43,209 nt of DNA from Bryobacteraceae bacterium (GTDB lineage: Bacteria; Acidobacteriota; Terriglobia; Bryobacterales; Bryobacteraceae): the NCBI GenBank assembly GCA_030038565.1, contig JASHSS010000035.1:1-43209 (forward strand). Direction: 5' to 3'. Made by a program: the position numbers and the translations under genes. Positions 15,397 through 32,647 of the stretch are shown in pieces (position 1 is the stretch's first letter; the number at the start of each line of letters is the position of its first letter). The notes under the pieces are model-generated. The model ran no database searches and was not told the DNA's origin. It saw nothing but the letters and a program-made list of their open reading frames with translations.

Positions 15397-16047
15397 TCAC
15401 ACCCTCCGCGTCGTGGCCAGCGAACCCTCCAGCGCAATGCGCACCAACTGGCTTCGCGTCCGCACGTGCGTCTTTTGGAATAACTGTTGCAGCGTGGCCT
15501 TCACCGCCCCTTCCGACACTCCAAGCTGTGCGGCGATCTCTTTGTTGGTGAGGCCTTCGAAGATCCCGCGGAGAACGCGCTGTTCGCGATCCGTCAACAG
15601 GGCCCGGAAGTTGGAATCCTCGCGCTGGTGGATGCCATCGGCCATTAACTGGATGACTTTCTGATCCAGCCACATCTCGCCGGCGGCTACCAGGCGGATG
15701 GCCTTGGCCAGCGTGCCCGGTGAGTTGTGCTTCAGAAACACGCCCGAGGCCCCCAACTGCAGCGCGATGGAAGATTCCGTGGCGGTCATTCCGGCGGTGA
15801 TCATCAGGAATTTGCCCTGGTAGCCGGCGCGCCGGGCGGAGCCGATGAACTGGCTGCCGTGGTCTTCGCCCAAATCGAAATCCAGCAGCACCACGTCCAC
15901 CGGCGTGCGGGCCAGGGCCTCCAACGCCTCCGCCGACGTCCCGCAGTTGCCGGCCATCTCAAAATCCGGCTCGGACGCCAGCAGGCGGCTCAGGCCTTCC
16001 CGGAACAGGATGTGGTCATCGAGCAATAAGAGTCGTATCGGGTTCAT
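15397..16047 (-). CDS. NarL/LuxR-type response regulator
   Basis: The 216-residue protein has a receiver domain (residues 4-120) with acidic pocket LLLDDH, phospho-acceptor Asp in VVLLDFDLGED and the switch Lys in GVFLKHNSP. A GerE/LuxR helix-turn-helix follows (about 150-210; LTDREQRVLRGIFEGLTNKEIAAQLGVSE). It is a cytoplasmic transcription regulator activated by phosphorylation. Its start overlaps the end of the histidine kinase gene by 32 bp, so the two are cotranscribed and form a cognate pair. The efflux operon lies just beyond the kinase in the opposite direction, which makes it a candidate regulator of that operon. Confidence 0.93.
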   Translation of the reverse strand: MNPIRLLLLDDHILFREGLSRLLASEPDFEMAGNCGTSAEALEALARTPVDVVLLDFDLGEDHGSQFIGSARRAGYQGKFLMITAGMTATESSIALQLGASGVFLKHNSPGTLAKAIRLVAAGEMWLDQKVIQLMADGIHQREDSNFRALLTDREQRVLRGIFEGLTNKEIAAQLGVSEGAVKATLQQLFQKTHVRTRSQLVRIALEGSLATTRRV

Positions 16048-17446
16048 GGGAGACGGCCTCGGCGGAGCCGGCGACGGCCAGATCGATCACGAACGAGCAT
16101 CCCGCGCGGGTGGGATCGTGGCGCAGTTCGCCGCGGAACGAGCGGGCGAAGGCGCGCGAAAGATACAGGCCCAGCCCCGTGGAAGCGGCGCCCCTCTGGA
16201 AGGGCTGGAACAGTGTTTCGGGAGAAGCGATGCCCGGCCCGCTGTCGCTCACCCGGATGGAAACCATGTGGGGTCCGGCGGTTACCGAGATTTCGATACG
16301 CTTCTCCCGGGCGCCCTCAAGGGCCCGCTCGCTGTTCTTGGTCAGATTGAGCAGAATCTGGAGCAGCCTGTGGCGATCGCCCCACACCGGGGGAAGCTCG
16401 CCCGGAACGTTCCAGATCACCTGGATATTGGCCTCCTCGCAATACGGCTCCAGCACGATGCGCAGCTCGTCCAGAATCTCTCCGATCTCGATGCCGCCGA
16501 TCGGGGAGTGGTCGCGCGACTGCTTCAGCTCGAGCGAAGCGATCCGGTGCAGCGTTTCGACCAGCGCGCCCAGCGCTTCGAAGTCCTTGTTGCCGCGCAG
16601 CGTGCCGCCGCGCACCAGGTTCTCGTGGACCACCGCGATGGCGCTGCACACATTGCGGATCTCGTGGGAAACCGCGCCTACCAGGATGCGCGATCCCGCC
16701 AGCAGTTGCTCCAGGTTGCTCTCCTCCCGCTCGCGCAAGTCTTCGGAAGCGTCCACCACCAGGGCCGCCAGGCGCGGTCCCATGGCCGTGCGGTAAGTGG
16801 AGAAGAAGACGTTGGCCAGGAAGACATCGCCGCGCTCGCGTTCGCCGCGGCACTGCATCTCGGTGCGGAAAGCCTGTGCCGACTGCTCGAGGGAGGGCAC
16901 CCGCGCGAGAGAGGGCACATAGCGCCGGATGTTGCGCCCCGGCAGTAGGCTGTCCGGCACGCCGAACAGGCGATGGGCCGCTCCGTTGGCCAGCAGAATG
17001 ACTCCCTCAGGGGTCATGGTGAGGATGGCGGCGGGGCTCGAGTCGATCAGAAACTCCAATTGCTCCTCGGCCTCGCGGCGGGCATCCACTTCGGCTTCCA
17101 CGCGCCGCAGCGCGGCGGCCTCCCGCAGCCGGCTGAGGGTGACTTCAAAGGCGAACAGTCCCGTTCCGGCCAGCGATGTGAAGACCAGGATATCCCCCGG
17201 CAGCGAATTGGCCAGTGTGAACGGGAATGGGTCGAAGAGATCCGAGAGCAGGGTACACAGTAATGCGCAGGCCACCACCTGCCAGCGCGGCAGCACGGTA
17301 CCCACCAGGAGCATGGGAAAAAGATATAGAAAGCCGAACGAAATGTTCAGATCGACGCGCCAATCGATCAAGGCGATGATCGCGATCAGCAACGCAGCCC
17401 GTAGCAGAACGGCGCGCGGCGTCCCTTGCAGAAACGGGACATCCAT
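16016..17446 (-). CDS. Membrane-bound PAS sensor histidine kinase
   Basis: The 476-residue kinase begins with about four hydrophobic helices (residues about 13-105: LLRAALLIAIIALIDW, FLYLFPMLLVGTVL, VVACALLCTLLSDLF, ILVFTSLAGTGLFAF). A coiled-coil linker and a PAS domain follow (about 130-240; EFLIDSSPAAILTMTPEGVI, then LANGAAHRLFG). The phospho-acceptor His lies in 'GAVSHEIRNVCSAI', and the HATPase has N-box 'QILLNLTKNSERAL', G1 'VSDSGPGI' and G2 'STGLGLYLSRAF'. It senses an unknown signal within or near the membrane and phosphorylates the overlapping response regulator. A strong GGAGAGGAG ribosome binding site precedes the ATG. Divergent from the RND efflux operon. Confidence 0.92.
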   Translation of the reverse strand: MDVPFLQGTPRAVLLRAALLIAIIALIDWRVDLNISFGFLYLFPMLLVGTVLPRWQVVACALLCTLLSDLFDPFPFTLANSLPGDILVFTSLAGTGLFAFEVTLSRLREAAALRRVEAEVDARREAEEQLEFLIDSSPAAILTMTPEGVILLANGAAHRLFGVPDSLLPGRNIRRYVPSLARVPSLEQSAQAFRTEMQCRGERERGDVFLANVFFSTYRTAMGPRLAALVVDASEDLREREESNLEQLLAGSRILVGAVSHEIRNVCSAIAVVHENLVRGGTLRGNKDFEALGALVETLHRIASLELKQSRDHSPIGGIEIGEILDELRIVLEPYCEEANIQVIWNVPGELPPVWGDRHRLLQILLNLTKNSERALEGAREKRIEISVTAGPHMVSIRVSDSGPGIASPETLFQPFQRGAASTGLGLYLSRAFARSFRGELRHDPTRAGCSFVIDLAVAGSAEAVSHEPDTTLIAR

Positions 17447-17465: not shown

Positions 17466-17493
17466 ATTCTAGAAAAAACAAAACTTTTCGCAA
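17466..17493 (-). promoter_or_regulatory. Putative sigma70 promoter of the kinase/regulator operon
   Basis: On the minus strand TTGCGA (17493-17488) and TAGAAT (17471-17466) are 16 bp apart, about 20 bp before the kinase start. The region is markedly AT-rich for this genome. The first AAAAGATAG box of the divergent promoter begins 12 bp upstream of this -35 element. Confidence 0.5.
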
Positions 17494-17504: not shown

Positions 17505-17570
17505 AAAAGATAGGTTTCTCCACACTAAAAGATAGATCCGCGGCGGAATGTGCGACAGCTACAGTAAAAG
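17505..17570 (+). promoter_or_regulatory. Double AAAAGATAG box plus GCTACAnTnAAAG promoter, copy A
   Basis: AAAAGATAGG at 17505 and AAAAGATAGA at 17527 are direct repeats exactly 22 bp apart, and GCTACAGTAAAAG begins 31 bp after the second. TACAGT (17560-17565) is a credible -10 element. There is no good -35 at the right distance; that place is taken by the second box, centred near -41 from the expected start, with the first near -63. This is the layout of an activator-dependent promoter. The same motif with identical spacing recurs at 20316-20381. Downstream, the leader to the outer-membrane gene is about 175 nt. The binding protein is unknown. Confidence 0.65.
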
Positions 17571-17747
17571 TACGGAAGACACTGGCGAGAGGCGTAGCGA
17601 TGCTTTCAGACGTCTTTCGGGACGACCGCGCTCCGAAGCCACGCCCCCCAGGGAGCTCCTGATCAGGGCGCCCCCGGCGGGTATCGTAAGGGAGCGGCTG
17701 GCGGCAAGGAGCCGGTGTTTTTCCGGCAGCGCTTTTCAGGAGGAATC

Positions 17748-19022
17748 ATGCGGCGCCTGCGGTGGCGTCTGTGGCTGGGAATGACAGCGGTGGTTTGGTT
17801 CGCCGGGGGCGCATGGGCGCAGCAGCCTCTCACCTGGCAGCAGGTGCGCGCGAAGTTCGAGGCAACCAACCCTACCTTGAAAGCGGCTGAACTCACCATC
17901 GATGAGGGCCGCGCCGCCGAAATCACCGCTTACCTGCGTCCTAACCCCGACTTCACTCTGTTGACCGATGGGAGTCAGATTGCCCCGTACCAGGGAGTGT
18001 GGCGTCCGTTCACCGGCACTGACATTTCCACCAGCTTCAGCTACCTGCACGAGCGCGCCCATAAACGCGAACTGCGTCTCGATAGCGCGCGAAAGGGCAC
18101 GGCGCTGGCCGTTTCCTCGCGTGACGACCAGGAACGCAACCTGCTATTCAACCTGCGCGGCGCCTTTGTCCAGGCGCTGGAAGCCAAGGCGGTGCTGGCG
18201 GAGGCCAACACCAACCTGGCCTACTACGATCGCCTGCTCGCCGTAAGCAACGACCGGTTCAGAGCCGGGGACATCGCGCAGGTGGACCTGGACCGTCTGG
18301 AACTTCAACGGGTGCAGTTCGAAACCGACGTGCAGACGGCCCTGGTAAATGTGCGCACCGCCAAAATTCAGCTTCTGCAACTGCTCGACGACCGCACGCC
18401 GGTGGAGCGGTTCGACATCACCGGTCCGTTCGAGTTCCCCGATACCCTGCCGCCGCTGGACGAAGTGCGCAGCGCCGCGCTGGCCACCCGGCCGGATTTG
18501 CGGGAGGCCCTTGAATCCGTCGATAAGGCCAATGCGGATTACAAGCTGGCCGTATCGAACGGCTCGGCCGATCCCACTTACAGCGCCTGGTGGACGCACA
18601 ACCCTTCGTTCAACAACCCGTACGACAACGAGACCCTGGGCGTCAGCGTCACCATTCCGCTGCGCATCTTCGACCGCAACCAGGGCGAGAAAGCACGCAC
18701 TCTCCTGGATATCCGCCGCAACCAGCGGCTGGCGGACGCTACCCGCGCCCAGGTTTTCAGCGACGTGGATTCGGCCTACGCCACGCTGATCGGTAACCTG
18801 GCCCTGCTGCGGCCGTATAAAGCCAAATATTTGCAGCTTGCCACGCGCGTGCGCGACACAGTCTCGTATGCCTATCAACACGGCGGCGCGTCGCTGCTGG
18901 ATTTTTTGCAGGCGCAGCAGGACTATCGCAGCGTGCAGGTGAATTATCTGAATCTGATTGGCGCCTGGTTAAGCGCCGCCAATCAACTCAATATGGCGGT
19001 GGGCCGTGAGGTGATCCAATGA
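17748..19022 (+). CDS. czcC: TolC-family outer-membrane efflux protein (CzcC-like)
   Basis: The 424-residue protein has a signal peptide (LGMTAVVWFAGGAWAQ) and two OEP repeats rich in long helices (LTWQQVRAKFEATNPTLKAAEL; GDIAQVDLDRLELQRVQFETDVQTA; ATRPDLREALESVDKANADYKLA). It forms the trimeric outer-membrane channel of a tripartite pump. I start at ATG 17748, seven residues of hydrophobic core after it, because AGGAGGA ends 4 bases upstream; the GTG at 17715 in the track lacks a ribosome binding site. The stop overlaps the adaptor start (ATGA). Metal specificity is not visible in this subunit; the czcC symbol is by role in the CBA set. Confidence 0.87.
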   Translation: MRRLRWRLWLGMTAVVWFAGGAWAQQPLTWQQVRAKFEATNPTLKAAELTIDEGRAAEITAYLRPNPDFTLLTDGSQIAPYQGVWRPFTGTDISTSFSYLHERAHKRELRLDSARKGTALAVSSRDDQERNLLFNLRGAFVQALEAKAVLAEANTNLAYYDRLLAVSNDRFRAGDIAQVDLDRLELQRVQFETDVQTALVNVRTAKIQLLQLLDDRTPVERFDITGPFEFPDTLPPLDEVRSAALATRPDLREALESVDKANADYKLAVSNGSADPTYSAWWTHNPSFNNPYDNETLGVSVTIPLRIFDRNQGEKARTLLDIRRNQRLADATRAQVFSDVDSAYATLIGNLALLRPYKAKYLQLATRVRDTVSYAYQHGGASLLDFLQAQQDYRSVQVNYLNLIGAWLSAANQLNMAVGREVIQ

Positions 19023-20158
19023 AACACGAAATCTATGCGGCCGGCCTGTGCGGGCTGGCACTGGTATTGGCGGGGTGCGGCGCCAAAGGCAGCACACGCA
19101 ACGACGAAAAGGGCGAAGCCCCTCCCCCCGCCCAGGTGGTGCAGGAGGCGGATGCCAGCCTGGTCAAAGTAGACCATCCGGAACAGTTCCCCCTGGCTAC
19201 CGCGGTCTCCCGCGCCGCCGCTCCCGAGCTCAATGTGACCGGTGTGGTGACCGCCGACGTTTCGCGCAACGTGCCGGTGATTTCGCTGGCTTCCGGCCGG
19301 GTGGTGGATATTCGCGCGCGTCTGGGCGACACCGTTCAGAAGGGCCAGATCCTGATGCGCGTGCAAAGCGCCGACCTCTCCGGCGCGTTTTCGGACTACC
19401 GTCACGCGCTGGCCGATGAAGTCCTGGCGAACGCGCAACTGGACCGTTCCAAGCTGCTCTACGAAAAGGGCGCCATCGCGCAGAAAGACCTGGAAGTGGC
19501 CGTGGATACCGAGGAGAAGGCCAAGGTGGATGTCGAGACGGCGCTCGAACACCTGCACGTGCTGGGGGCCGATCCGGACCATCCGTCGCCCATCGTGGAC
19601 ATCCCCGCGCCGGCTTCCGGGGTGATCACCGAGCAGAACGTGACCGCCGCGGCGGGCGTCAAGACCCTCGATAATTCGCCCAACCTGTTCACGATTTCGG
19701 ACCTCTCGGAGGTCTGGATCCTGTGCGACGTATACGAGAACAATCTGCCTGCCGTGCACCTGGGCGAATTCGCCGACATCCGCCTGAATGCCTATCCCGG
19801 GCAGGTGTTCCACGCGCGCATCGGCAACATCGGACCGATTCTGGATCCCAACATCCGCACCGCCAAGGTGCGCCTGGAAATCCACAACCCCGGCCTGATG
19901 AAGCTGGGGATGTTCGTCACGGCCACCTTCCACGGGCAGACCATCGAAATGCGGGCGGTGGTTCCGGCATCCGCGGTGCTGCACCTGCACGATCGCGACT
20001 GGGTTTATATGCCCGCGCCCAACAACGGTTTCCGCCGCGTGGAAGTAGTTGGTGGCAAGATGCTGCCACCCGACCGCCAGGAGATCGAAAACGGCGTGAA
20101 GCCCGGCGACCAGGTGGTGGCCAACGCCCTGGTTCTGCAGAACGCTGCTGAGCAGTAA
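19019..20158 (+). CDS. czcB: RND efflux periplasmic adaptor lipoprotein (CzcB-like)
   Basis: The 379-residue membrane-fusion protein joins the inner-membrane pump to the outer-membrane channel. A lipobox LVLAGC (Cys near residue 20) predicts lipid anchoring. The lipoyl/barrel-sandwich halves are 'SGRVVDIRARLGDTVQKGQILM' and 'PAPASGVITEQNVTAAAGV', with a helical hairpin between them (about residues 120-180). Beta-barrel and membrane-proximal parts follow (VWILCDVYENNLPAVHLGEFADI; GFRRVEVVGGKMLPPDRQEIENG). The start overlaps the upstream gene by 4 bp, so translation is coupled. No His-rich metal-binding extension of the classical CzcB kind is present. Confidence 0.9.
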   Translation: MKHEIYAAGLCGLALVLAGCGAKGSTRNDEKGEAPPPAQVVQEADASLVKVDHPEQFPLATAVSRAAAPELNVTGVVTADVSRNVPVISLASGRVVDIRARLGDTVQKGQILMRVQSADLSGAFSDYRHALADEVLANAQLDRSKLLYEKGAIAQKDLEVAVDTEEKAKVDVETALEHLHVLGADPDHPSPIVDIPAPASGVITEQNVTAAAGVKTLDNSPNLFTISDLSEVWILCDVYENNLPAVHLGEFADIRLNAYPGQVFHARIGNIGPILDPNIRTAKVRLEIHNPGLMKLGMFVTATFHGQTIEMRAVVPASAVLHLHDRDWVYMPAPNNGFRRVEVVGGKMLPPDRQEIENGVKPGDQVVANALVLQNAAEQ

Positions 20159-20238
20159 GAGGCGCCGCCTGGACGCCGGAACGAGGAGAACGAGCCTTTC
20201 CGCGTCTTACTCCAGGCCCCCAGCGCACCCCGCCCCCC

Positions 20239-20290
20239 GTGTCCGGGACTCTAAATTGCCCGCTGGCTTTTTGAACTGGTGGTCGGACAC
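20239..20290. repeat. Inverted repeat between adaptor and pump genes
   Basis: GTGTCCG (20239-20245) pairs with CGGACAC (20284-20290) across a 38-base spacer, in a 238-bp gap that separates czcB from czcA. It may attenuate read-through, which would fit the separate promoter directly downstream. No gene is seen in 20159-20396. Confidence 0.3.
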
Positions 20291-20315
20291 GCGCCTGAGC
20301 TGGCGGCCCGTTCCC

Positions 20316-20381
20316 AAAAGATAGGGCCAGGTGAATCGAAAGATAGGGCCACCCAGGGGGGGCCTGTCGCTACATTGAAAG
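20316..20381 (+). promoter_or_regulatory. Double AAAAGATAG box plus GCTACAnTnAAAG promoter, copy B
   Basis: AAAAGATAGGG at 20316 and GAAAGATAGGG at 20338 are 22 bp apart, and GCTACATTGAAAG begins 31 bp after the second box. The spacing is identical to copy A at 17505, while the sequence between boxes differs. The likely -10 is TACATT (20371-20376). It predicts a start near 20383, only about 14 nt before the czcA ATG, so czcA would have a very short leader. Confidence 0.65.
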
Positions 20382-20396
20382 CAGGCTTCAATTTCC

Positions 20397-23300
20397 ATGA
20401 TTCGCGGATTGGTCGATTTCGCGCTCCACAACCGTCTGCTGGTAATTGCTCTGGCCGTTATGCTGTTCGTATGGGGCGTCATCTCTTTTGAAAATCTGCC
20501 GATTGAAGCCTACCCCGATGTCGCCAACAACTATGTCCAGGTGATCACCCAGTGGCCCGGCCGGGCCGCCGAAGAGATGGAGCAGCAGGTCACCATCCCC
20601 ATCGAAATCGCGATGAACGGCCTGCCGCACCTGCAGCACCTGCGCTCCACGTCGCTGTTCGGCCTGTCCAGCGTAATGCTGGTTTTCGACGACGATTCGG
20701 AGGACGACTGGAACCGCCAGAAGGTGCTGGAGCGCCTCTCCATGGTCACGCTGCCGCAGAACCTCCAGCCGCAGATGGGCACCGACTACAGCCCGGTCGG
20801 CCAGATCTACTGGTATACCCTGCACAGCACCAATCCCGAATACGACCTGATGGAGCTCAAGTCGCTCGAAGACTGGTACCTGGAGAAGCAGTTCAAGTCG
20901 GTGCCCAACGTAGTGGACGTTTCCAGCTTCGGCGGGACCACCAAGGAATACCAGGTGCAGCCCGACCCCGACAAGCTGGTGGATTACGGGTTGAGCCTGT
21001 CGCAGGTGGAACAGCAGTTGGCCAACAACAACGTGAATGCCGGCGGCAGCTTCATCGAAGCCGGATTGCAGCAGATCAACGTGCGGTCGCTGGGGTTGGT
21101 GCAGCACGTCGGCGACATCGGCCAGATCGTCATCAAGGTGCAGAACGGCACGGCCATCCGGGTGGCGGATGTCGCCAACGTCGTGCAGGGTCCCAAGATC
21201 CGTCTGGGGCGCATCGGCAAGGCTATCCATCGGGCCGACGGCAAGATCCTCGACAACGATGACGTGGTGGAAGGAATCGTGCTTCTCCGCAAGGGCGCCA
21301 ATTCCGACGAAACGCTGGTGGCGATTCACAACAAAGTGGACGAGCTGAACAATGGCTTATTGCCTCCGGGAGTGAAGATCGTTCCGTTTCTGGACCGCAG
21401 CGAGCTGGTGCACTACACCACCCACACGGTACTCCACAACCTGAGCGAGGGCATCATCCTGGTAGCCCTGATCCTGTTCATGTTCCTGGGCAATGCCCGC
21501 GGCGCCCTGGTGGTGGCGATGACCATTCCGTTCTCGCTTCTGTTCGCGTCGATCTGCCTGGATTTGCGCCACATTCCGGCCAACCTGCTCTCGCTGGGAG
21601 CGCTGGATTTCGGCATGGTGGTGGATGGCGCGGTGGTGATGGTGGAGAACATCGTGCGGCACATGGGCCGCCGGGTGGATCCGCCGCGTCCCGTGCTGGC
21701 GCGCATCCGCGAGGCCGCCTTCGAGGTGCAGCGTCCGGTGTTTTACGCCATCGGCATCATCATTACCGCCTATCTGCCCATCTTCACCCTGCAAAGCGTG
21801 GAGGGCCGGCTCTTCAAGCCGATGGCCTGGACGGTGGCTTTCGCCCTGTTAGGAGCGTTGCTCTTCTCCATGGTCCTGGCGCCGGTGCTGTGCAGTTTCC
21901 TGTTCCGCGGCACCACCCGCGAATGGCGCAACCCGGTGCTGGTGTGGCTGATCGACCACTACCGGTCGGCGGTGCGCTTCGCCATTCGAGCACGATATCT
22001 GACCGCTGCTGTGGCGCTTGGCTCGGTGTGCGCGGCGGCCTGGCTGCTTTCGAGCGGCATCATCGGCTCCGAGTTCCTGCCGCACCTGGATGAAGGCGCG
22101 ATTTGGGCGCGCGGCACGCTGGCCCCCTCGACGGGTCCGGCGGAGGGCAACCGGCTGATGACTCAGGCGCGCCTGATCCTGGCTTCTTTTCCCGAGGTGA
22201 CCGAGGTGGTTTCGCAGGTGGGACGGCCAGACGACGGCACCGACACCACGGGCTTCTTCAATACCGAGTACTTCGTCGGCCTGAAGGACAAGGACCAGTG
22301 GCGGCCGGTGTTCCGGGAGCAGAAAGACGAGCTCATCGGCGCTATGGACCGCGAGCTGGAGAAGCTCCCGGGCGTGCTCTGGAATTTCTCCCAACCCATC
22401 GCCGACAACATGGAGGAAGCCGTCAGCGGCGTGAAAGGCGAGCTGGCGATTAAGATCTATGGCGACGATCTCAAGATCCTGGAGGAGAAAGGCGACCAGA
22501 TCGTCAACGTGATGCGCAAGATCAAGGGAGTGGAGGATCTCGGGTTGTTCCGCGTGATCGGGCAGCCCAACCTCAACTTCACGGTGGATTGGCGCCAGGC
22601 GGCGCGCTTCGGCCTCAACGCCGCCGACGTGCAGGACGCTGTACAGACCGCCGTGGGCGGCAACGCCCTGACGCAGGTGCTGCAAGGCGAGCGCCGCTTC
22701 GACCTGGTGCTGCGCTACCTGGCCCCCTTCCGCAACACCAAGGAAGCCATCGAGGCGGTGCGCCTGCTCTCGCCGACCAACGAGCGAGTTTCGCTGGAAC
22801 AGCTTTGCGACACCCAGGTGGCCGATGGCGCCTCCGAGATCTACCGCGAGGAGAACTCGCGCTACGTCGCTTTGAAGTACAGCGTGCGCGGCCGCGACTT
22901 GGGCAGCACGGTGGAAGAGGCCATCCGCAAGGTGAACGCGCAGGTGAAGCTGCCCACCGGCTACCGCATCGATTGGGCCGGCGAGTATGCCAGCCAGCAG
23001 CGCTCGCAACGCCGCCTCATGATCGTGCTGCCGATCACCATCCTGGTGATCTACATCATCATGTACACCATGTTCCACTCGTTCAAGTGGGCTACCCTGA
23101 TGCTGGCGAACATCGCCATGGCGCCTCTGGGCGGCCTGCTGGCGTTGCTCATCACGGGGACCCATTTCAGCGTGTCTTCAGGCGTCGGCTTCCTGGCGCT
23201 GTTCGGCGTTTGCGTGCAGACCGGCGTGATCATGCTGGAGTACATCAACCAGCTTCGCTCGCGCGGCCACTCGGTGCTCGATGCGGCGGTGGAAGGCGCG

Positions 23301-23534
23301 GTGCTCCGGCTGCGCCCCATCATGATGACCACCCTTGTGGCCACCCTGGGCCTGATTCCCGCCGCCATGTCCCACGCCATCGGCTCGGATTCGCAGCGCC
23401 CCTTCGCGATTGTGATTGTCGGCGGGCTGATGGTGGCCATGGTGATGAACGTCTTCCTGCTGCCCACGCTGTATGTCTGGGTGGCCGCGGACGACGATGT
23501 CCTGCCGACGCCGGAAGCGGACTTCGAAGAGTAG
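20397..23534 (+). CDS. czcA: Heavy-metal-type RND efflux pump (CzcA-like)
   Basis: The 1045-residue proton-driven inner-membrane pump has the complete RND plan: TM1 (LLVIALAVMLFVWGVISF), periplasmic loop 1, TM2-7, loop 2, TM8-12. The TM4 motif 'LGALDFGMVVDGAVVMVENIV' near residue 400 carries the Asp-Asp-Glu set typical of the CzcA/CnrA heavy-metal-efflux class (DFG..VDGAV..VEN), not the copper/silver CusA form. The exact ion cannot be assigned. The start at ATG 20397 keeps TM1 intact, though no clear ribosome binding site is visible, consistent with the short leader predicted from the adjacent promoter. Unlike usual CBA operons, it is separated from czcB by 238 bp and has its own promoter motif. 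Confidence 0.93.
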   Translation: MIRGLVDFALHNRLLVIALAVMLFVWGVISFENLPIEAYPDVANNYVQVITQWPGRAAEEMEQQVTIPIEIAMNGLPHLQHLRSTSLFGLSSVMLVFDDDSEDDWNRQKVLERLSMVTLPQNLQPQMGTDYSPVGQIYWYTLHSTNPEYDLMELKSLEDWYLEKQFKSVPNVVDVSSFGGTTKEYQVQPDPDKLVDYGLSLSQVEQQLANNNVNAGGSFIEAGLQQINVRSLGLVQHVGDIGQIVIKVQNGTAIRVADVANVVQGPKIRLGRIGKAIHRADGKILDNDDVVEGIVLLRKGANSDETLVAIHNKVDELNNGLLPPGVKIVPFLDRSELVHYTTHTVLHNLSEGIILVALILFMFLGNARGALVVAMTIPFSLLFASICLDLRHIPANLLSLGALDFGMVVDGAVVMVENIVRHMGRRVDPPRPVLARIREAAFEVQRPVFYAIGIIITAYLPIFTLQSVEGRLFKPMAWTVAFALLGALLFSMVLAPVLCSFLFRGTTREWRNPVLVWLIDHYRSAVRFAIRARYLTAAVALGSVCAAAWLLSSGIIGSEFLPHLDEGAIWARGTLAPSTGPAEGNRLMTQARLILASFPEVTEVVSQVGRPDDGTDTTGFFNTEYFVGLKDKDQWRPVFREQKDELIGAMDRELEKLPGVLWNFSQPIADNMEEAVSGVKGELAIKIYGDDLKILEEKGDQIVNVMRKIKGVEDLGLFRVIGQPNLNFTVDWRQAARFGLNAADVQDAVQTAVGGNALTQVLQGERRFDLVLRYLAPFRNTKEAIEAVRLLSPTNERVSLEQLCDTQVADGASEIYREENSRYVALKYSVRGRDLGSTVEEAIRKVNAQVKLPTGYRIDWAGEYASQQRSQRRLMIVLPITILVIYIIMYTMFHSFKWATLMLANIAMAPLGGLLALLITGTHFSVSSGVGFLALFGVCVQTGVIMLEYINQLRSRGHSVLDAAVEGAVLRLRPIMMTTLVATLGLIPAAMSHAIGSDSQRPFAIVIVGGLMVAMVMNVFLLPTLYVWVAADDDVLPTPEADFEE

Positions 23535-23626: not shown

Positions 23627-26359
23627 ATGAAAATCCGTCTCGCGGGCGCCTTATTTCTGTTTCTGCTGGTCAACAGCGGCTATCTGGTGGCTTACCCCTC
23701 CGCCACTTTGTTCTACATGGCTAACGCGGTGGCGCACCTGGCGGCGGGCCTCGCGCTGATGGCAGTGGCGGCGTGGAGCCTGAAGCGCTATCCGCGGGAA
23801 GGCGGAGCGTTTCTGGTGGCCGGTCTGCCGGCGCTGTTTCTGGCAGTGCGGGGCAACACCTTCGATCATCGCGCCATCTTGTGGCTGCACATCGCGCTCG
23901 CGTCGGTCGCGGTGGGGCTGGTGGCATGGCGGGCCCGGAGGGTGCCCCGGCGCCGGATTCCGCTGGTCGCGCCGGCTTGCGCGGTCGCGCTGCTGCTGCC
24001 GGTCTCGGCGGCTGTATGGAACCGTGTCCATCCCTCGCCGGATGACCGCATCGTGAATCCGCCCTCTCCGCCCCTTTCCATGGATGAGGAGGGGTTGGGC
24101 GCGCATTCGCCCTTTGCCCCGTCCTCCGCGCGCACCACCACCGGACGCACCATCCCTTCGAACTTTTTCATGGATTCGGCAACCTGCGGCGAGTGCCACA
24201 AGGACATCTACGAGCAGTGGAAAGGCTCCATGCACCACATGGCCTCCTTCAACAACCAGTTTTATCGCAAGGCCATCGAATACATGCAGTCTGTTACCGG
24301 AACGCGTCCCAGTAAATGGTGCGCCGGATGCCACGATCACGCGGTGTTTTTCAACGGCCGTTTCGACCGGCCCATCTCCCAGCAGATCGATACTCCGGAG
24401 GCCCAGGCGGGCCTCGGTTGCATGTCCTGCCACGCCATCGTCCACGTGGGAAGCTCCATGGGCAACGCCGATATAGCGGTGGAATACCCTCCCCTGCATG
24501 AGTTGGCTTCCAGCCACAGCGGGCCGGTGCGGGCGGTCTCCTCGTTCCTCACCTATCTGAATCCCGCGCCGCATCGCATGACCTTCCTGAAGCCCTTCAT
24601 GCGCCAGGCGGAGTTTTGCGCCGCCTGCCACAAAGTGCACCTGGATGTGCCGGTGAACAGCTATCGCTGGCAGCGCGGCTTCAACGACTACGACAACTGG
24701 CAGGCCAGCGGCGTTTCCGGCCAGGGCGCGCGCTCGTTCTATTACCCCGACAAGCCCATGGCCTGCGCCGATTGCCATATGCCGCTGGTGGATTCGCGCG
24801 ACCCGGGCAACCGCCAGGGCAAGATCCACTCGCATCGCTTCGCCGCCGCCAATACGGCCGTCCCGTACGTCGATGGGGACAGCCGGCAGCTCGCGGAGAC
24901 CGAAAAGTTTCTCCAGTCGGGCTTCATCACGGTGGACATTTTCGCCGTCTCTCCGGTGGATGCCGCGCGCGGGCAGACTTCCATGCTGCGGCGCAACGAC
25001 GCGCCCCAGGCCAATTCCACGTTCGCGGTGGGGGAGGAAGCCGAACACTCCGCGCCGGCGATGGTGCGGGAAGTCGGCAAGCTGTCTGCGCCCGTGGGAG
25101 CGGCCGGCGCGTGCCTGGAACCCGGTACGACGTCGCGCGTGGACGTGGTGGTGCGCACCCGCAAAATCGGCCACTTCTTCCCGGCCGGCACGGTAGATGT
25201 TTTCGACACCTGGCTGGAATTGCAGGCCAAAGATGACGACGGCCGCATACTCTTCTGGAGCGGGATGGTGGAAGATGGCGGAAAGGGTCCGGTCGAGCCG
25301 GGCGCGCACTTCTACCGCTCCTTGCAACTGGATGCCGCCGGAAACCCCATCGACAAGCGCAACGCCTGGCAATCGCGCAGCCTGCTGTACGTCAGGCTGA
25401 TCCCGCCCGGCGCGGCCGATGTGGTGCATTACCTGGTGAAGACGCCCCGCGACGCCAAGGGACCGATCCATCTCACCGCGCGGCTGAATTACCGCAAGTT
25501 CTCCTGGTATTACACGCAATTTGCGTATGCCGGCGTGCCCCGGCCCGGACAGGATCCGGCCCTGCTCACGAAGGATTTCAACAGCCTGCAATACAGCTTT
25601 CTGCCGGCCTCCATCCCGCCCAACGTCTCTGGAAAGATTCGCGGCCGCATCCCCGACCCGCCCATCGTTACCCTGGCGGAAACGCACGCCACTCTGCCCC
25701 TGGGCCGGCCGGATTGGAAGCCGGTGGTGCGGAAACAGGATCGCGAGCGATGGAACGATTGGGGCATCGGGCTGCTGCTGCAGGGCGATCTCAAGGGCGC
25801 CGAGTACGCCTTCGAGCGCGTGACCGAGGCCGACCCGGCGTACGCCGACGGCTGGCTGAATGTGGCCCGCGCGCTGATACAGGAGGGCGAGACTGACGCC
25901 GCCAAGCCGTACCTGGCGAAAGCCCTGGGCCTGAGCCCGCGCCTCGGCCGCGCCGAGTTTTTCCAGGCCGCGGTAGAAAAAGCCGATGGCGATTACGCGG
26001 GCGCGCTCGCCTCGCTGGCGGTGGCGCGCGAGCAGTACCCGCGCGATCGCGTGGTGCTCAACCAGTTCGCCCGCATTCAGTTCCTCCAGCGGCGGTACGC
26101 CGAGGCCGTGGAGACGCTAAAGGCTGTAGATGCGGTGGACCCGGAGGATGTGCAGATGCACTACACCCTGATGCTGTGCTATCGCGGGCTGGGCAATGCC
26201 GCCTCGGCCGAGCGCGAGGAGCAGTTATTCCGCCGCTTCAAAGCCGACGAGGCCTCGCAGGCGATCACCGAAAAACGGCGGCAGCTCAGCCCCGAAGATA
26301 ACAACGAGCGCCAGCCAGTCCACGACCACGAGAGCGTGGCGCTTCCGGAGGGCAAGTGA
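23627..26359 (+). CDS. Membrane-anchored pentaheme cytochrome c with C-terminal TPRs
   Basis: The 910-residue protein begins with about five hydrophobic segments (residues 5-140), then a periplasmic part with five CxxCH heme-binding motifs: CGECH (about 187), CAGCH (232), CMSCH (265), CAACH (331) and CADCH (380). This region resembles the cytochrome c554/multiheme fold used for electron transfer ('SATCGECHKDIYEQW'). A beta-rich region follows (about 470-690), and TPRs occupy about 705-890 (LLLQGDLKGAEYAFERVTEADPAYADGWLNVARAL). It should carry electrons at the outer face of the inner membrane while docking partners through the TPRs. The stop overlaps the start of a CRTAC1 gene (GTGA). The electron donor and acceptor are unknown. 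Confidence 0.88.
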   Translation: MKIRLAGALFLFLLVNSGYLVAYPSATLFYMANAVAHLAAGLALMAVAAWSLKRYPREGGAFLVAGLPALFLAVRGNTFDHRAILWLHIALASVAVGLVAWRARRVPRRRIPLVAPACAVALLLPVSAAVWNRVHPSPDDRIVNPPSPPLSMDEEGLGAHSPFAPSSARTTTGRTIPSNFFMDSATCGECHKDIYEQWKGSMHHMASFNNQFYRKAIEYMQSVTGTRPSKWCAGCHDHAVFFNGRFDRPISQQIDTPEAQAGLGCMSCHAIVHVGSSMGNADIAVEYPPLHELASSHSGPVRAVSSFLTYLNPAPHRMTFLKPFMRQAEFCAACHKVHLDVPVNSYRWQRGFNDYDNWQASGVSGQGARSFYYPDKPMACADCHMPLVDSRDPGNRQGKIHSHRFAAANTAVPYVDGDSRQLAETEKFLQSGFITVDIFAVSPVDAARGQTSMLRRNDAPQANSTFAVGEEAEHSAPAMVREVGKLSAPVGAAGACLEPGTTSRVDVVVRTRKIGHFFPAGTVDVFDTWLELQAKDDDGRILFWSGMVEDGGKGPVEPGAHFYRSLQLDAAGNPIDKRNAWQSRSLLYVRLIPPGAADVVHYLVKTPRDAKGPIHLTARLNYRKFSWYYTQFAYAGVPRPGQDPALLTKDFNSLQYSFLPASIPPNVSGKIRGRIPDPPIVTLAETHATLPLGRPDWKPVVRKQDRERWNDWGIGLLLQGDLKGAEYAFERVTEADPAYADGWLNVARALIQEGETDAAKPYLAKALGLSPRLGRAEFFQAAVEKADGDYAGALASLAVAREQYPRDRVVLNQFARIQFLQRRYAEAVETLKAVDAVDPEDVQMHYTLMLCYRGLGNAASAEREEQLFRRFKADEASQAITEKRRQLSPEDNNERQPVHDHESVALPEGK

Positions 26360-28149
26360 CCCCGCCTGCGAAGGATCGGCAACGAGCCGGCGCCGCGCAG
26401 GGTTGGTGGGACAGGCTATTAGCCTGTCGAAAGACGGTCCCGCCATCCAAACTACGCGCGGCCTCGGTGAGGGGGCCCTTTGGCCTGCCCCACCTTCTGC
26501 TAGCCTCGATTGCCGTGGCCTCGATGGCCGTCCTCCTTGCGGCGGACCGGCTGCCCGGCGCGGGAGTGCAGTTTACCGACGTGACCGCTGCGGCCGGGAT
26601 ACACTTCACCCACAACGCCGGGCGCACGGGGCGGAAATTCCTGCCGGAGACGCTCGGCGCGGGCTGCGCCTTCTTCGATGCCGATGGCGACGGCTGGCCG
26701 GATATCCTGCTCATCAACGGCAAGGATTTCGTACCTCACGGCCGCCGCACGGTCGCTGCGCTGTACCACAACAATCACAACGGGACTTTCACCGATGTGA
26801 CCGCCGGAAGCGGCCTGGATGTCGAGATGTACGGCCTGGGCGTGGCCATCGCCGATTACGATAACGATGGCCGCGAAGACGTCTACATCACCGCACTGGA
26901 CGGCGACCACCTTTTCCACAACGAGGGCCACGGAAAGTTCCGCGACGTGACCGCGGCTTCGGGAATCCGCAATGCCAGCTTCGGCGCCAGCGCCGCGTGG
27001 CTGGACTACGACCGCGACGGCAAAGTGGACCTGTTCGTCGCCAACTACGTCCAGTGGAGCGCCAAGACGGACCTGTGGTGCTCACTGGATGGCTCGACCA
27101 AATCCTATTGCACCCCCGAATCCTACAAGGGCACGCGCTCGCGCCTGTTTCACAACCTGGGCAACGGCCGGTTTGAAGATGTCACCGAGAAGGCCGGATT
27201 GGGCGACCCCACCAGCAAGTCGCTGGGCGTTACGGTGCTCGACTACAACAACGATGGATGGCCGGACCTGTTCGTGGCCAACGATACCCAACCCAATAAG
27301 CTCTATCGCAACCTGGGCAACGGTACGTTCCACGAAGAGGGTATGGCGGCGGGAGTTGCATATGGCGAGGACGGCGTGGCGCGCGGAGCCATGGGCGCGG
27401 ATGCCGGCGACTACGACCGCAGCGGACGGCCTGGCCTGCTGGTGGGCAACTTCTCCAACCAGATGCTGGGACTCTACCACAACGAGGGCAACGGGCTGTT
27501 TGTGGATGAAGCGCCTTCCTCGACGGTGGGCCGATCGAGCCTCCTTTCGCTTTCGTTCGGGGTGTTCTTCTTCGACTACGATCTGGATGGCTACCCGGAT
27601 ATCCTGGCGGCCAACGGCCATATCGAGGACGAAATCGGGCGCGTGCAGCCCAAGGTGAGCTACCGGGAAACCCCGCTGCTTTTCCGCAATCTGGGGAATC
27701 ACCGCTTCGAAAATGTCAGCTCGCAGATGGGGCCGGCGTTTTCCAGACCCATGGTGGCGCGCGGCGCCGCTTACGCCGATTTCGATCACGATGGCGATCT
27801 GGACGTGCTGATCTCCAACAACAACGGGCCCGCCGTGCTGCTGCGCAACGACGGTGGCAACCGCAACCATTGGCTCAGCGTCCGGCTGGCGGGCGCGCGA
27901 TCCAACCGCGACGGCCTCGGCGCGGTGGTGCGGGTGGAAAGCCAGGGCGGAAAGCAGTGGAATATGGTCCGCAGCGGATCGAGTTACTGCTCCCAAAGCG
28001 ACCTGGCGCTGACGTTCGGGCTGGGCGCCGACACCACCGCCAATGTGGAGGTGGTCTGGCCCAGCGGCACGAAGCAGCAGTTTCGGAACGTGGCCGCCAA
28101 CCGGCGCGTGCTGATCGACGAAAATCGCGGGATCAGCGTTCTGCCGTAG
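26356..28149 (+). CDS. Exported CRTAC1-type FG-GAP/ASPIC-UnbV protein
   Basis: A signal-anchor-like helix (LPHLLLASIAVASMAVLLAA, about residues 44-63) is followed by FG-GAP/VCBS repeats with calcium-type Asp loops (FFDADGDGWPDILLINGKD; IADYDNDGREDVYI; WLDYDRDGKVDLFVANY; FFDYDLDGYPDILAANG). A C-terminal ASPIC/UnbV domain follows (about 505-590; RSGSSYCSQSDLALTFGLG). The fold is an extracytoplasmic beta-propeller; its ligand is unknown. The GTG start overlaps the cytochrome stop, suggesting translational coupling. However, residues 17-47 are encoded by a palindromic repeat, so the true start may be GTG 26467 or ATG 26524. It ends in a 17-bp convergent overlap with the amidase gene. Confidence 0.87.
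   Translation: MTPPAKDRQRAGAAQGWWDRLLACRKTVPPSKLRAASVRGPFGLPHLLLASIAVASMAVLLAADRLPGAGVQFTDVTAAAGIHFTHNAGRTGRKFLPETLGAGCAFFDADGDGWPDILLINGKDFVPHGRRTVAALYHNNHNGTFTDVTAGSGLDVEMYGLGVAIADYDNDGREDVYITALDGDHLFHNEGHGKFRDVTAASGIRNASFGASAAWLDYDRDGKVDLFVANYVQWSAKTDLWCSLDGSTKSYCTPESYKGTRSRLFHNLGNGRFEDVTEKAGLGDPTSKSLGVTVLDYNNDGWPDLFVANDTQPNKLYRNLGNGTFHEEGMAAGVAYGEDGVARGAMGADAGDYDRSGRPGLLVGNFSNQMLGLYHNEGNGLFVDEAPSSTVGRSSLLSLSFGVFFFDYDLDGYPDILAANGHIEDEIGRVQPKVSYRETPLLFRNLGNHRFENVSSQMGPAFSRPMVARGAAYADFDHDGDLDVLISNNNGPAVLLRNDGGNRNHWLSVRLAGARSNRDGLGAVVRVESQGGKQWNMVRSGSSYCSQSDLALTFGLGADTTANVEVVWPSGTKQQFRNVAANRRVLIDENRGISVLP
26405..26494. repeat. Palindromic repeat at the 5' end of the CRTAC1 gene
   Basis: GGTGGGACAGGC (26405-26416) is mirrored by GCCTGCCCCACC (26483-26494) with one mismatch. 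Inside lies ACAGGCT-ATT-AGCCTGT (26411-26427, perfect), then GGTCCCGCC, which can also pair with the left edge. The edges match the hairpin at 7368-7418 (GGTGGG...CCCACC). It resembles a small mobile palindrome of the REP or MITE kind. Confidence 0.6.
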
Positions 28150-29551
28150 GCGCGGCCGGTGGTTTCCACCCTCCGAAAACCTCCTCCAGCCAGAGCGCCA
28201 CGCGCAGCACGATATCTTCGCGCCACGGGCCGGCCGCTACCTGCACCGCGATCGGCAGGCCGGTGCTGGATTCTCCGCAGCGCACCACCGCGGCGGGCCA
28301 GCCCGCGACGTTGAACGCCATGGTGTGGCTGAATCCTCGAAAATTCTCGTCGAGGATGGATTCGCCGTGAGGGAGCGCGGGGTGGGTGTAAGCCGGGCAA
28401 AGAATTACGTCGTAGCGGCTCAGGAAGCGGGCCATCTCCGCGCGATACGCATCCAACTCGGCCCAGTACCGCGCAAAGCCGGCCAGATCGGTGCGGTACG
28501 GCTCCAGTTTGTCGAGCCAGCCGGTGAGCAGCGGATGCACCTGGGTGGACCCGAGCTCACGCAAGTAGGCCCTCAGCCCGTCGCCGCCATCCGGGCCGAT
28601 CAGCATCATTTCCAGATCGTAGGCCGCCTCCAGGCACGCCGGGCGGGTTTCCTCCACCGATCGGACCACCGAGTCCAGGGCCGCGCCCGCCGGCCATACC
28701 ACCCAAGTCACCTCGTCGTCCGCCGCGGCGATCCCGTTGTTGGTGTAGACTGCCACGCGCAATTCGGAGAGATCCACCTCGTGCGGATCGCGGAACGGCA
28801 CATGGGGAACCGTGGGATCGATGCCGTCGGGACCGTTCAGCAGGCGCATGGCCTCGATGAGGTCTTCCACCCTTCGGGCCATGGGTCCGATCTGCCATAC
28901 CGTTTCCAGCCAGCCGCCCGCAGGTGGGAAGTGGCCCGTGCGCGGCAGACGGCCGGAGGTCGGCTTGAGAGCGGCGATCCCGCAGAATGCCGCCGGCAGC
29001 CGGACGGAACCAGCCGCATCGCTGCCCAGCCCCAAAGGCGAGCCGCACGCCGCAATCAGCGCCGCTTCGCCCCCGCTGCTGCCGCCCGAAGTGCGCGTCA
29101 CTTCGTAGGGATTATTGGTTTGCCCGAAGATCAGGTTGGCGCTTTCGAAGGCGAAAAGCAGGTCTGGCAGATTGGTTCGGGCGATGGGGATGGCGCCGGC
29201 CGCGCGCAGCCGCGCGACCAGGGTGGCATCGGCGGTGGAAGGCGGTGCGTTTCGCCGGCCCCAGGTGCCCGCGGTCGATCGGGTTCCGGCTTGTTCGATC
29301 GAGTCCTTGACGCTGAACGGCACGCCGTGCAAAGGCCCGCGCAACGTTCCCGCCGCCAGTTCACGGTCGGCCGCATCCGCATCCGCGAGCGCCCGCTCGC
29401 ATTGCACCTCGACCGCCGCGTGGAGCAGCGGATCGATCGCCGCGATCCGCTCCAGATGCGCCGCGATCAACTCGCGCGATGAGAGGGCGCGCTCGCGTAC
29501 CAGGCGAGCTTGCTCCAGCGCCGGGAGCGTCAGGGGGTCGGGGTGAGGCAT
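28133..29551 (-). CDS. Amidase-signature family hydrolase
   Basis: The 472-residue enzyme belongs to the amidase-signature family, which hydrolyses carboxamides with a Ser-cisSer-Lys triad: Lys82 in GVPFSVKDS, cis-Ser near 158 in TSGGSSGGEAALIA, and nucleophile Ser182 in GLGSDAAGSVRLPAAFCG. No signal peptide, so cytoplasmic. It could also be labelled GatA-like, but no gatC neighbour exists and the C-terminal half ('LCPAYTHPALPHGES') fits general amidases better. The track ORF runs to 30085, but the extension overlaps the divergent TPR/FG-GAP gene in antisense; ATG at 29551 is the natural start, 12 bp from that gene. It overlaps the convergent CRTAC1 gene by 17 bp. Confidence 0.88.
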   Translation of the reverse strand: MPHPDPLTLPALEQARLVRERALSSRELIAAHLERIAAIDPLLHAAVEVQCERALADADAADRELAAGTLRGPLHGVPFSVKDSIEQAGTRSTAGTWGRRNAPPSTADATLVARLRAAGAIPIARTNLPDLLFAFESANLIFGQTNNPYEVTRTSGGSSGGEAALIAACGSPLGLGSDAAGSVRLPAAFCGIAALKPTSGRLPRTGHFPPAGGWLETVWQIGPMARRVEDLIEAMRLLNGPDGIDPTVPHVPFRDPHEVDLSELRVAVYTNNGIAAADDEVTWVVWPAGAALDSVVRSVEETRPACLEAAYDLEMMLIGPDGGDGLRAYLRELGSTQVHPLLTGWLDKLEPYRTDLAGFARYWAELDAYRAEMARFLSRYDVILCPAYTHPALPHGESILDENFRGFSHTMAFNVAGWPAAVVRCGESSTGLPIAVQVAAGPWREDIVLRVALWLEEVFGGWKPPAAPTAER

Positions 29552-29563
29552 ACTGTCATGTAG

Positions 29564-32500
29564 ATGCGCAGCAAATTTCGAGGGTTCCTTGGCGCGGCCG
29601 CATTGGCCGGAATGGCCGGCGCGGGCTGGCTGGTCTTCGGGCAGAGTTCCAACGACGACCGGCTTTGGCAGCACCGCAACCTGGGCAAAGCGTTTTATGA
29701 GAACCCCACCCTCCACAAGGAGGCGGTGGACGAACTGCGCCAGGCTCTCGCCCTGGCGCCCAATTCCGTCCGCGAGCGGTTGAATTACGGGCTGGCCCTG
29801 CTGCGGCTGGGCGATGTGGAAGCGGCCACCGCCGAATTGGAGCGGGTGCAAAAGACCGATCCCGGGCTTCCCCATACGTGGTTCAACCTGGGCATCGTTT
29901 ACAAGAAAGAAAATGAGGTGGACAAGGCCTTCACCCAGTTCCAGGAGATGGTCAGGCTGGTTCCCAACGAACCGATAGCTCACTACCAGTTGGGGGTGGT
30001 CGACAAGCTGAAGGGCGACACCGCCGCGGCGGTTGCGCAGTTCGAAGCCGCGCGCGATCTCAACCCGCTGCTGGCCGCGCCGCATTTCCAGCTCTTCGGA
30101 CTATACCGGCAGACCGGCCGCGACATGCAATCGGCGGAAGAGCTGCGCGTTTTCCAGGAGATCAAAAAGCAGCAGGAGGGAGCGGCGGTTCCGGAAGATG
30201 TCGAATGGTGCCAGTACGCCGAGTTGTACGATCCGATCGACGCGCCCTCGCTTCCCCTGGCCGCGCCGGTGTACCGCGAGGAGAAGGTGGCGGAAGGCTT
30301 CAGCGGGCCGGCTTCCGGGGTGACTTCGCTGGCCGGCGCTAACGGGCACGCGGACCTGATCGCCTGGTCATCGGGCCGCGTGGCATGGTTCCGCGGCGGC
30401 CGGACCCCGGTGGCGGATTCCGGCCTGGAGGCCCTCCGCGACGTGCGCTTCATCGCGCCCGGCGATTTCGATAACGATGGTTTGCCCGACCTCTGCGTGA
30501 TCACCGCCAAGGGCGCCACGCTTTATCGCAACACCGGCAGCCGGTTTGTGAAACACTCCGAGCTGGCCGCCGGATCCTTCCGCCAGGGCGTCTGGATCGA
30601 TTACGACCACGATTACGACGAAGACCTGATCCTGGTGGGGGACGATTCGCGCCTGTTGCGCAACAACGGGGAAGCTGGATTCAGCGACGAAACCAGGCGC
30701 TTTCCGTTTGTGCCAGGGCGGGCGCTGGATGCCGTGCGATTCGACCTGGAACCCGACACGCCGGGCTTCGACCTGGTGGTCTCCTATGCCGGGCGGCCCG
30801 GCGTGCTCTACCGCGACCACCTCGCCGGAAGTTACCAGGCGGTTCCGCTCGCGGCGCTGCCCCCGGACGCTCACGGCCTGACGGCGGCAGATGTCAACCA
30901 CGATGGCTTCACCGACCTGGAGTTCGAACCCGGACGCCTGCTCCTGAATCATGGGGGCCGTCTGGAAACCGCTCCGCGGCCCGAGCCCCGTCCGTTCCCC
31001 ACCACCTATGCCGCCGCGGATTTCACCGGCAACGGGAGGCTCGATTGGGCCGGCGTGAAGGGCGATGGAACCCTGGTGATCGAACGGGACGTCACCCCCA
31101 ACTATGGCCATTGGATCGAAGTGGCGCTCGCCGGCGTGAAGAGTCCGAAACTGGCCCTGAACTCCAAGGTTGAGGTGAAGGCCGGCTCCCGCTACGAAAA
31201 ACAGACCTACGCGGGCATACCGCTGGTCTTCCGCCTGGGCGGTCATGCCGCGGTGGATACCGTGCGCATCACCTGGCCGAACGGCCTCATCCAGAACGAA
31301 ACCAGTCCGCCCGTGGACCGCGTGCTGGCGGTGAAAGAAGCGCCGCGACTGTCTGGCTCCTGCCCCATGATCTTCACCTGGAACGGAGAGCGCTTCCAGT
31401 TTGTCACGGACGTGCTGGGCGTAGCGCCGCTGGGCGCCAGTTCCGGCGATGGACAATTCTTCCCCGTGGACCACCAGGAATACGTCGCCATCCCCGCCGC
31501 CATGCTCCAGGCGCGCGAAGGAGCTTACCAGATCCGCATGACCGAGGAACTGCGTGAGGTCTCTTATATCGATCAGATCAAGCTGCTGGCGCTGGACCAT
31601 CCCGCGGACATGGAAATCGTCACCAACGAGAAGTTCAAATCGCCGCCGTTCCCCGAATATCGCCTGTACGGAGCGAGCCGCAGAATTTATCCCGCCGCGG
31701 CGCGGGATAGCCACGGGGCCGACGTGCGCGCGGCCCTCCTGGAACGCGACCGGCGCTACCCGGATGCCTTCCGGCGCGATCATGCGGGCGTGGCGGAGTT
31801 GCACCATCTGGACCTGGATTTCGCTGGCGCGGCTGCCGATGGAAGAGCCGTTCTGGTGCTCTACGGCTGGGTGGATTGGGCCGATGGCAGCACCTTCCTG
31901 GCCGCCGCCCAGGCTCATCGCGACCTGGTGTTTCCGTACCTTCAGGTAAAAGATGCGCAGGGGAATTGGAAAACCGTGATCGAAGATATGGGCATGCCGT
32001 CGGGGAAGCCCAAGGCCATGGCGGTGGACCTCACCGGCAAGTTCCTCTCGCCGTCGCGCGAGGTGCGGATCGTCACCAACCTGTGCGTCTATTGGGACCA
32101 GATCTATCTGTTCGAGACCAATGCGCCGCCGCCCGCGCGGCTGACGGAAATTCCGCTGGCTTCCGCTGACCTGCATTTTCGCGGCTTCTCGCGGGCCACC
32201 ATCGATCCCCAGCGCAAACAGCCCGAATCCTTCGATTACCAGACCACCCGCGCCACTTCCATGTGGAACCCGACGCCCGGCAACTACACCCGTTACGGCC
32301 CCATCACGACCCTGCTGCGCGACGCCGACGACCGCATGGCGATCCTGGGATCGGGCGACGAAATCCGCATGACGTTCTCCGCTGGCGGCCTGCCGCTGCT
32401 TTCCCCCGGCTGGACCCGCGATTACCTGCTGCTGGTGGACGGCTGGGCCAAGGATGCCGATGCCAACACGGCCTTCTCGCAATCGGTGATGCCGTTGCCC

Positions 32501-32647
32501 TTCCACGCCATGAGCCGCTACCCGTACCCGGAGGGCGAGCGCTATCCGGACGACCCGGCCCACCGGTCTTACATCCGCGAGTATCTGACCCGCCCCGCTC
32601 TGCGGCTGGTACGGCCGCTCGCGCCAGCCGAACCCGGGACGCGGTAG
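29564..32647 (+). CDS. Large exported TPR/FG-GAP/ASPIC-UnbV protein with unknown C-terminal region
   Basis: The 1027-residue protein starts with a signal-like helix (FLGAAALAGMAGAGWLVFG). Residues about 40-200 are TPRs (LNYGLALLRLGDVEAATAEL; TWFNLGIVYKKENEVDKAFTQF). Residues about 235-490 form an FG-GAP/VCBS propeller (APGDFDNDGLPDLCVIT; DYDHDYDEDLILVGDD; AADVNHDGFTDLEF), and 520-575 an ASPIC/UnbV domain (SRYEKQTYAGIPLVFRLGGH). The last 430 or so residues, from 'CPMIFTWNGERFQFVTDVLG' onward, match no family I can name; I recall the same tail on related acidobacterial proteins. It shares the TPR and FG-GAP themes with the cytochrome and CRTAC1 genes upstream, suggesting a common envelope complex. 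Divergent from the amidase with 12 bp between starts. Confidence 0.85.
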   Translation: MRSKFRGFLGAAALAGMAGAGWLVFGQSSNDDRLWQHRNLGKAFYENPTLHKEAVDELRQALALAPNSVRERLNYGLALLRLGDVEAATAELERVQKTDPGLPHTWFNLGIVYKKENEVDKAFTQFQEMVRLVPNEPIAHYQLGVVDKLKGDTAAAVAQFEAARDLNPLLAAPHFQLFGLYRQTGRDMQSAEELRVFQEIKKQQEGAAVPEDVEWCQYAELYDPIDAPSLPLAAPVYREEKVAEGFSGPASGVTSLAGANGHADLIAWSSGRVAWFRGGRTPVADSGLEALRDVRFIAPGDFDNDGLPDLCVITAKGATLYRNTGSRFVKHSELAAGSFRQGVWIDYDHDYDEDLILVGDDSRLLRNNGEAGFSDETRRFPFVPGRALDAVRFDLEPDTPGFDLVVSYAGRPGVLYRDHLAGSYQAVPLAALPPDAHGLTAADVNHDGFTDLEFEPGRLLLNHGGRLETAPRPEPRPFPTTYAAADFTGNGRLDWAGVKGDGTLVIERDVTPNYGHWIEVALAGVKSPKLALNSKVEVKAGSRYEKQTYAGIPLVFRLGGHAAVDTVRITWPNGLIQNETSPPVDRVLAVKEAPRLSGSCPMIFTWNGERFQFVTDVLGVAPLGASSGDGQFFPVDHQEYVAIPAAMLQAREGAYQIRMTEELREVSYIDQIKLLALDHPADMEIVTNEKFKSPPFPEYRLYGASRRIYPAAARDSHGADVRAALLERDRRYPDAFRRDHAGVAELHHLDLDFAGAAADGRAVLVLYGWVDWADGSTFLAAAQAHRDLVFPYLQVKDAQGNWKTVIEDMGMPSGKPKAMAVDLTGKFLSPSREVRIVTNLCVYWDQIYLFETNAPPPARLTEIPLASADLHFRGFSRATIDPQRKQPESFDYQTTRATSMWNPTPGNYTRYGPITTLLRDADDRMAILGSGDEIRMTFSAGGLPLLSPGWTRDYLLLVDGWAKDADANTAFSQSVMPLPFHAMSRYPYPEGERYPDDPAHRSYIREYLTRPALRLVRPLAPAEPGTR

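Follow-up and report, generated by a model that had tools for sequence, protein, structure and literature searches.

Heavy-metal RND efflux is usually under OmpR-type control. CusRS, CzcRS and SilRS are two-component systems that control heavy-metal RND operons, and their regulators are of the OmpR/PhoB type. A NarL-type response regulator, EvgA of the EvgA/EvgS system, activates mdtEF and emrKY, including an RND pump; it acts through an inverted repeat and is paired with a hybrid kinase. LytTR regulators such as AgrA recognise direct repeats: two 9-bp copies, separated by about two turns of the helix, that lie within the -35 region or immediately upstream of it. Within the NarL family, ComA of Bacillus subtilis brings about class II (type II) activation from a direct repeat (TTGCGG-5nt-TTGCGG), which has an 11 bp period and lies next to an inverted repeat (PMC4797271).

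The window, the whole stretch of 43,209 nucleotides from a Bryobacteraceae bacterium analysed here, contains a CzcCBA-type heavy-metal RND operon divergent from genes for a histidine kinase and a NarL-type response regulator. Two copies of a double box, already assigned to an RND efflux locus in a preliminary description, both serve this one operon. Judged from sequence, the double box is very probably the operator of the adjacent NarL-type response regulator at a class II activated promoter, with the kinase as the presumed sensor. The features concerned are:

15397..16047, minus strand: NarL/FixJ-type response regulator (Response_reg + GerE), the proposed binder of the boxes
16016..17446, minus strand: histidine kinase with predicted membrane N-terminus, PAS and HATPase, overlapping the regulator gene
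17466..17471, minus strand: TAGAAT, predicted to be the -10 of the kinase promoter, which is divergent and also has a -35-like TTGCGA (16 bp)
17505..17513, plus strand: site 1, box 1, AAAAGATAG
17527..17535, plus strand: site 1, box 2, AAAAGATAG, 22 bp after box 1, centre about -41.5 from the predicted start
17560..17565, plus strand: TACAGT, predicted to be the -10 of the promoter of the efflux operon, with transcription expected to start at about 17572
17715..19022, plus strand: CzcC-like outer membrane efflux protein, whose translation likely starts at ATG 17748
19019..20158, plus strand: periplasmic adaptor, CzcB-like
20316..20324, plus strand: site 2, box 1, AAAAGATAG
20338..20346, plus strand: site 2, box 2, GAAAGATAG
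20371..20376, plus strand: predicted -10 TACATT of a second promoter before the RND gene, predicted start about 20383
20397..23534, plus strand: heavy-metal RND pump of the CusA/CzcA family, scoring above the cut-off of TIGR00914

The regulator combines the receiver (PF00072, 6.3e-15) and GerE (PF00196, 7.2e-15) domains of the NarL/FixJ type in Pfam, and its best NCBIfam model is NarL, yet with a score under the equivalog cut-off of that model. The pump reaches 933 bits with TIGR00914 (cut-off 701), as an HME-RND protein (CusA/CzcA, family 2A0601), and its residues 404-418 read DFGMVVDGAVVMVEN, the expected HME-RND motif being DFGxxxDGAVVxVEN. The kinase-regulator operon and the three-gene efflux operon are separated by 268 bp, where site 1 is found; site 2 occupies a space of 238 bp between the adaptor and pump genes. 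The corresponding space measures only about 0-20 bp in most orthologous loci, which makes the second promoter largely peculiar to this genome. In two other loci (L190 and L191), however, the pump gene by itself follows an array of three or four boxes of its own, adjoining a regulator gene. For the outer membrane protein, the probable start is ATG 17748, which follows AGGAGG, and not GTG 17715. A terminator-like hairpin with a T run (17697-17716) lies in the efflux leader, between the predicted start at 17572 and ATG 17748, although such structures are not more numerous than expected by chance. Genes for a multihaem-cytochrome/TPR protein, two FG-GAP/ASPIC-UnbV proteins and an amidase are found 3' of the pump (23627-32647).

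As with CusRS, CzcRS and SilRS, a two-component system, the proposed inducer, is located beside an HME-RND operon with divergent or nearby promoters. Unlike CusR and CzcR, which are OmpR/PhoB-type winged-helix regulators, the protein encoded in the window has a GerE domain and no Trans_reg_C match in Pfam, and its operator would be formed by two direct repeats 22 bp apart. Heavy-metal RND efflux would in this way be tied to a two-component system of the NarL type. The proposed control of efflux genes, including an RND pump, by a NarL-type response regulator recalls EvgA; however, the inverted repeat, the hybrid kinase and the multidrug targets belong to EvgA, whereas the pump of the window is a heavy-metal pump. 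Like LytTR/AgrA sites, the boxes are direct repeats about two turns apart near the -35 region, and a LytTR regulator was the first idea drawn from the 22-bp repeats. It was rejected for the adjacent regulator, which carries GerE and no LytTR domain; the consensus also differs. The proposed use of direct repeats at a class II position by a NarL-family regulator is shared with ComA, but the hexamer repeat with a 5-nt spacer is replaced here by AAAGATAG repeats 22 bp apart (20-23 bp over the wider family), with no conserved inverted repeat.

The steps of +22 and +31 bp within each site (17505/17527/17558 and 20316/20338/20369) agree exactly with the preliminary description, which erred in one letter of the boxes: the second box of site 2, at 20338, reads GAAAGATAG and not AAAAGATAG. 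The invariant core is therefore AAAGATAG, preceded by A or G, as relatives confirm. Owing to the initial G of this box, an exact search with the composite motif finds site 1 alone. When AAAGATAG-N14-AAAGATAG was searched with up to three mismatches in the 8.08 Mb genome, nine matches were obtained, of which the two sites have no mismatch and the other seven three each. Moreover, a 36-bp matrix built from 18 orthologous sites, with the window excluded from training, gives the two sites 40.7 and 28.7 bits and the next-best window position -2.2. Near-exact pairs in the genome being these two only, a genome-wide regulon is rejected; the regulon is local, with one or two promoters per genome. Comparison of sites 1 and 2 yields no significant alignment apart from the boxes and the -10. 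A recent copying of site 1 into site 2 is thus rejected as well, in keeping with the original suggestion of conserved spacing rather than recent duplication.

A search with the kinase (E <= 1e-50) in 250 genomes of the order found it in 123, and about 80 loci were examined. Wherever the kinase is at least 63% identical (20 loci, window included), the pair stands between the kinase and efflux genes, at a spacing of 22 bp, or 21 bp in one locus. The footprint of box 1 in these orthologues is GGCC(A/G)AAAGATAGG(T/C)TG and that of box 2 is CC(A/G)AAAGATAGG, followed by TAnAnT at +32. In some RND-linked loci with 48-53% identical kinases the boxes are degenerate or absent, and no boxes were found next to the kinase in L122-L124, where it is about 61% identical and has no adjacent RND gene.

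TACAGT and TACATT were first put forward as plausible -10 elements; TAnAnT is conserved at +32/+33 after box 2 in 15 of the 20 orthologous loci. In five loci AGGAG and an ATG come directly behind this element, so that transcription would most simply start just behind TAnAnT. No -35-like match was found for the plus-strand promoters of the window, nor a conserved -35 in the orthologous loci, and the 22 bp between box 2 and the -10 carry almost no information across them. A sigma factor site with the box as -35 was rejected in view of the two tandem copies and the distance of 24 bp to the -10. From the predicted start, the computed centres of box 2 and box 1 are about -41.5 and -63.5, respectively; sequence and the footprint of 20 loci, with starts predicted, thus give the class II layout, in which a site centred near -41.5 replaces the -35 and is followed by a -10. 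The activator-dependent layout proposed at the outset is borne out by this footprinting, which retains the boxes and the -10 and not the intervening base pairs. Class II activation fits the geometry, and it is from the geometry that we infer activation rather than repression. On the other side, 16 of the 20 loci have a -10 resembling TAGAAT for the divergent kinase promoter (ATTCTA, up to one mismatch), at a distance of 40-42 bp from box 1.

The box appears to follow the regulator and not the pump. Upstream of kinase relatives that are less than 60% identical and have no divergent RND gene, AAAGATA is the top 7-mer, present in 17 of 47 loci (expected 1.1 and maximum 5 in shuffles). L063 has three boxes 20 bp apart with no RND gene matched within the stretch examined, L203 has four boxes, L188 has boxes upstream of a lone regulator gene, and in L218 a -10-like TAAATA lies about 32 bp after box 2, before a kinase relative. 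Conversely, RND orthologues without an adjacent regulator of this NarL-type family mostly lack the pair; one of them (L230) keeps a single box at class II distance. Most members of the regulator family share an almost invariant recognition helix, VK[AS]..QQLF.KT. The candidate regulator is the NarL-type protein encoded next to the boxes, which belongs to a family that carries the box upstream of its own operons.

The exact double box, AAAGATAG-N12-15-AAAGATAG, gave 26 matches in 20 of the 250 genomes of the order, and all 26 adjoin either a member of the kinase-adjacent regulator family or the homologous RND operon. Some of these places (L186-L191) were not reached through the kinase. The reversed control pattern gave at least five matches in the same genomes, among the matches listed. 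Exact pairs in the order are thus confined to one type of locus and not scattered inside genes, with one or two promoters per genome; the preliminary description had named many hits restricted to promoters as support for a regulon. A longer-spaced match from a search of 41 genomes (L192) has no neighbour of the regulator family or of the RND type. Across the phylum, the composite pattern with three mismatches gave mostly chance matches, although those in L029 and L033 are upstream of related efflux genes. A stricter pattern applied to one genome for each of 84,980 species returned 29 stretches. Sixteen adjoin the kinase-regulator/RND system, 14 of them in records named Bryobacterales, Solibacter, Solibacteraceae, Sulfopaludibacter or Acidobacteria/Acidobacteriia; the 13 others, from other phyla, have no related gene nearby, and some are plain tandem repeats.

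Other explanations of the double box must be weighed against these observations. The boxes could be operators of the adjacent regulator that repress, or that repress the kinase promoter while activating the pump. The pair does sit between the kinase -10 and the efflux -10, but neither box overlaps a -10, whereas a repressor site would more often cover the -10 or the start; moreover, an efflux promoter without a conserved -35 and with box 2 exactly there is what activation predicts. Both forms of this reading are improbable. It is quite improbable that the boxes bind an unlinked regulator of metal-efflux operons, such as a metal-responsive repressor or a global activator. Pairs before RND operons without intact kinase-regulator neighbours (L186 and L033, and L187, where these are degraded) would suit such a protein, and an unrelated protein could in principle share the same site. 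However, the box is enriched upstream of kinase-regulator genes with no RND neighbour, and its presence before the lone regulator gene and the kinase relative of L188 and L218 ties it to the family. In L187 (G601:C246, 1811-2330) the kinase and regulator matches are short overlapping fragments, and the box pair and the adaptor gene remain. That the pair arose by chance or is a mobile repeat has a negligible probability: beyond the shortness of each box nothing speaks for it, and it is refuted by conservation of the position in many genera, with the sequence between the boxes not conserved and a count expected by chance far under that observed.

Under control by the adjacent regulator, the membrane kinase would sense a signal, probably a metal ion or envelope stress, and the phosphorylated NarL-type protein would bind both boxes, a tandem direct repeat with a step of 22 bp, on the same face of the DNA. 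With no -35 and box 2 in its place, the bound regulator would recruit RNA polymerase to a promoter that has only the TAnAnT -10; box 2 would thus mediate class II activation and box 1 strengthen it. Site 1 would drive the CzcCBA-type operon, and site 2 would be a second promoter for the pump gene under the same control. The position of site 1 between the efflux and the divergent kinase-regulator operons suggests that there is probably feedback on the kinase promoter too. A more tentative proposal, rather less likely than not, is that a whole family of NarL-type regulators in acidobacteria recognises two to four CC(A/G)AAAGATAGG boxes arranged head to tail, with a spacing of 20-22 bp, rather than inverted repeats. 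Same-facing units would assemble on the DNA, and array length and box quality would tune each metal-efflux promoter.

A literature search found no study of this double-box/kinase-regulator system, and the operator site appears to be undescribed. The regulatory assignment is sound, ordinary in kind and useful in detail, and involves no new kind of biology. It provides a well-defined predicted operator for regulators of a so far unstudied family; in the phylum as a whole, very few regulators are characterised. The prediction specifies individual base pairs and lends itself readily to testing.

Related arrangements occur elsewhere. In L121 a second exact box pair is located 834 bp from the kinase, before a different RND operon (pump 42% identical). 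The L218 pair, in a record named Candidatus Methylomirabilis, precedes a kinase relative cut by the end of the stretch; its contig is binned to another phylum, through either transfer or contamination. Finally, the genome of the window has a paralogous HME-RND operon (G000:C305, L239, about 4150-4280 in reverse complement) with a 69% identical pump and its own regulator (54%), preceded by a degenerate array of boxes (GGCCGAAAGATGC, GGCTGAAAGATTT and GGTCGAACGATTG) at roughly two-turn steps.
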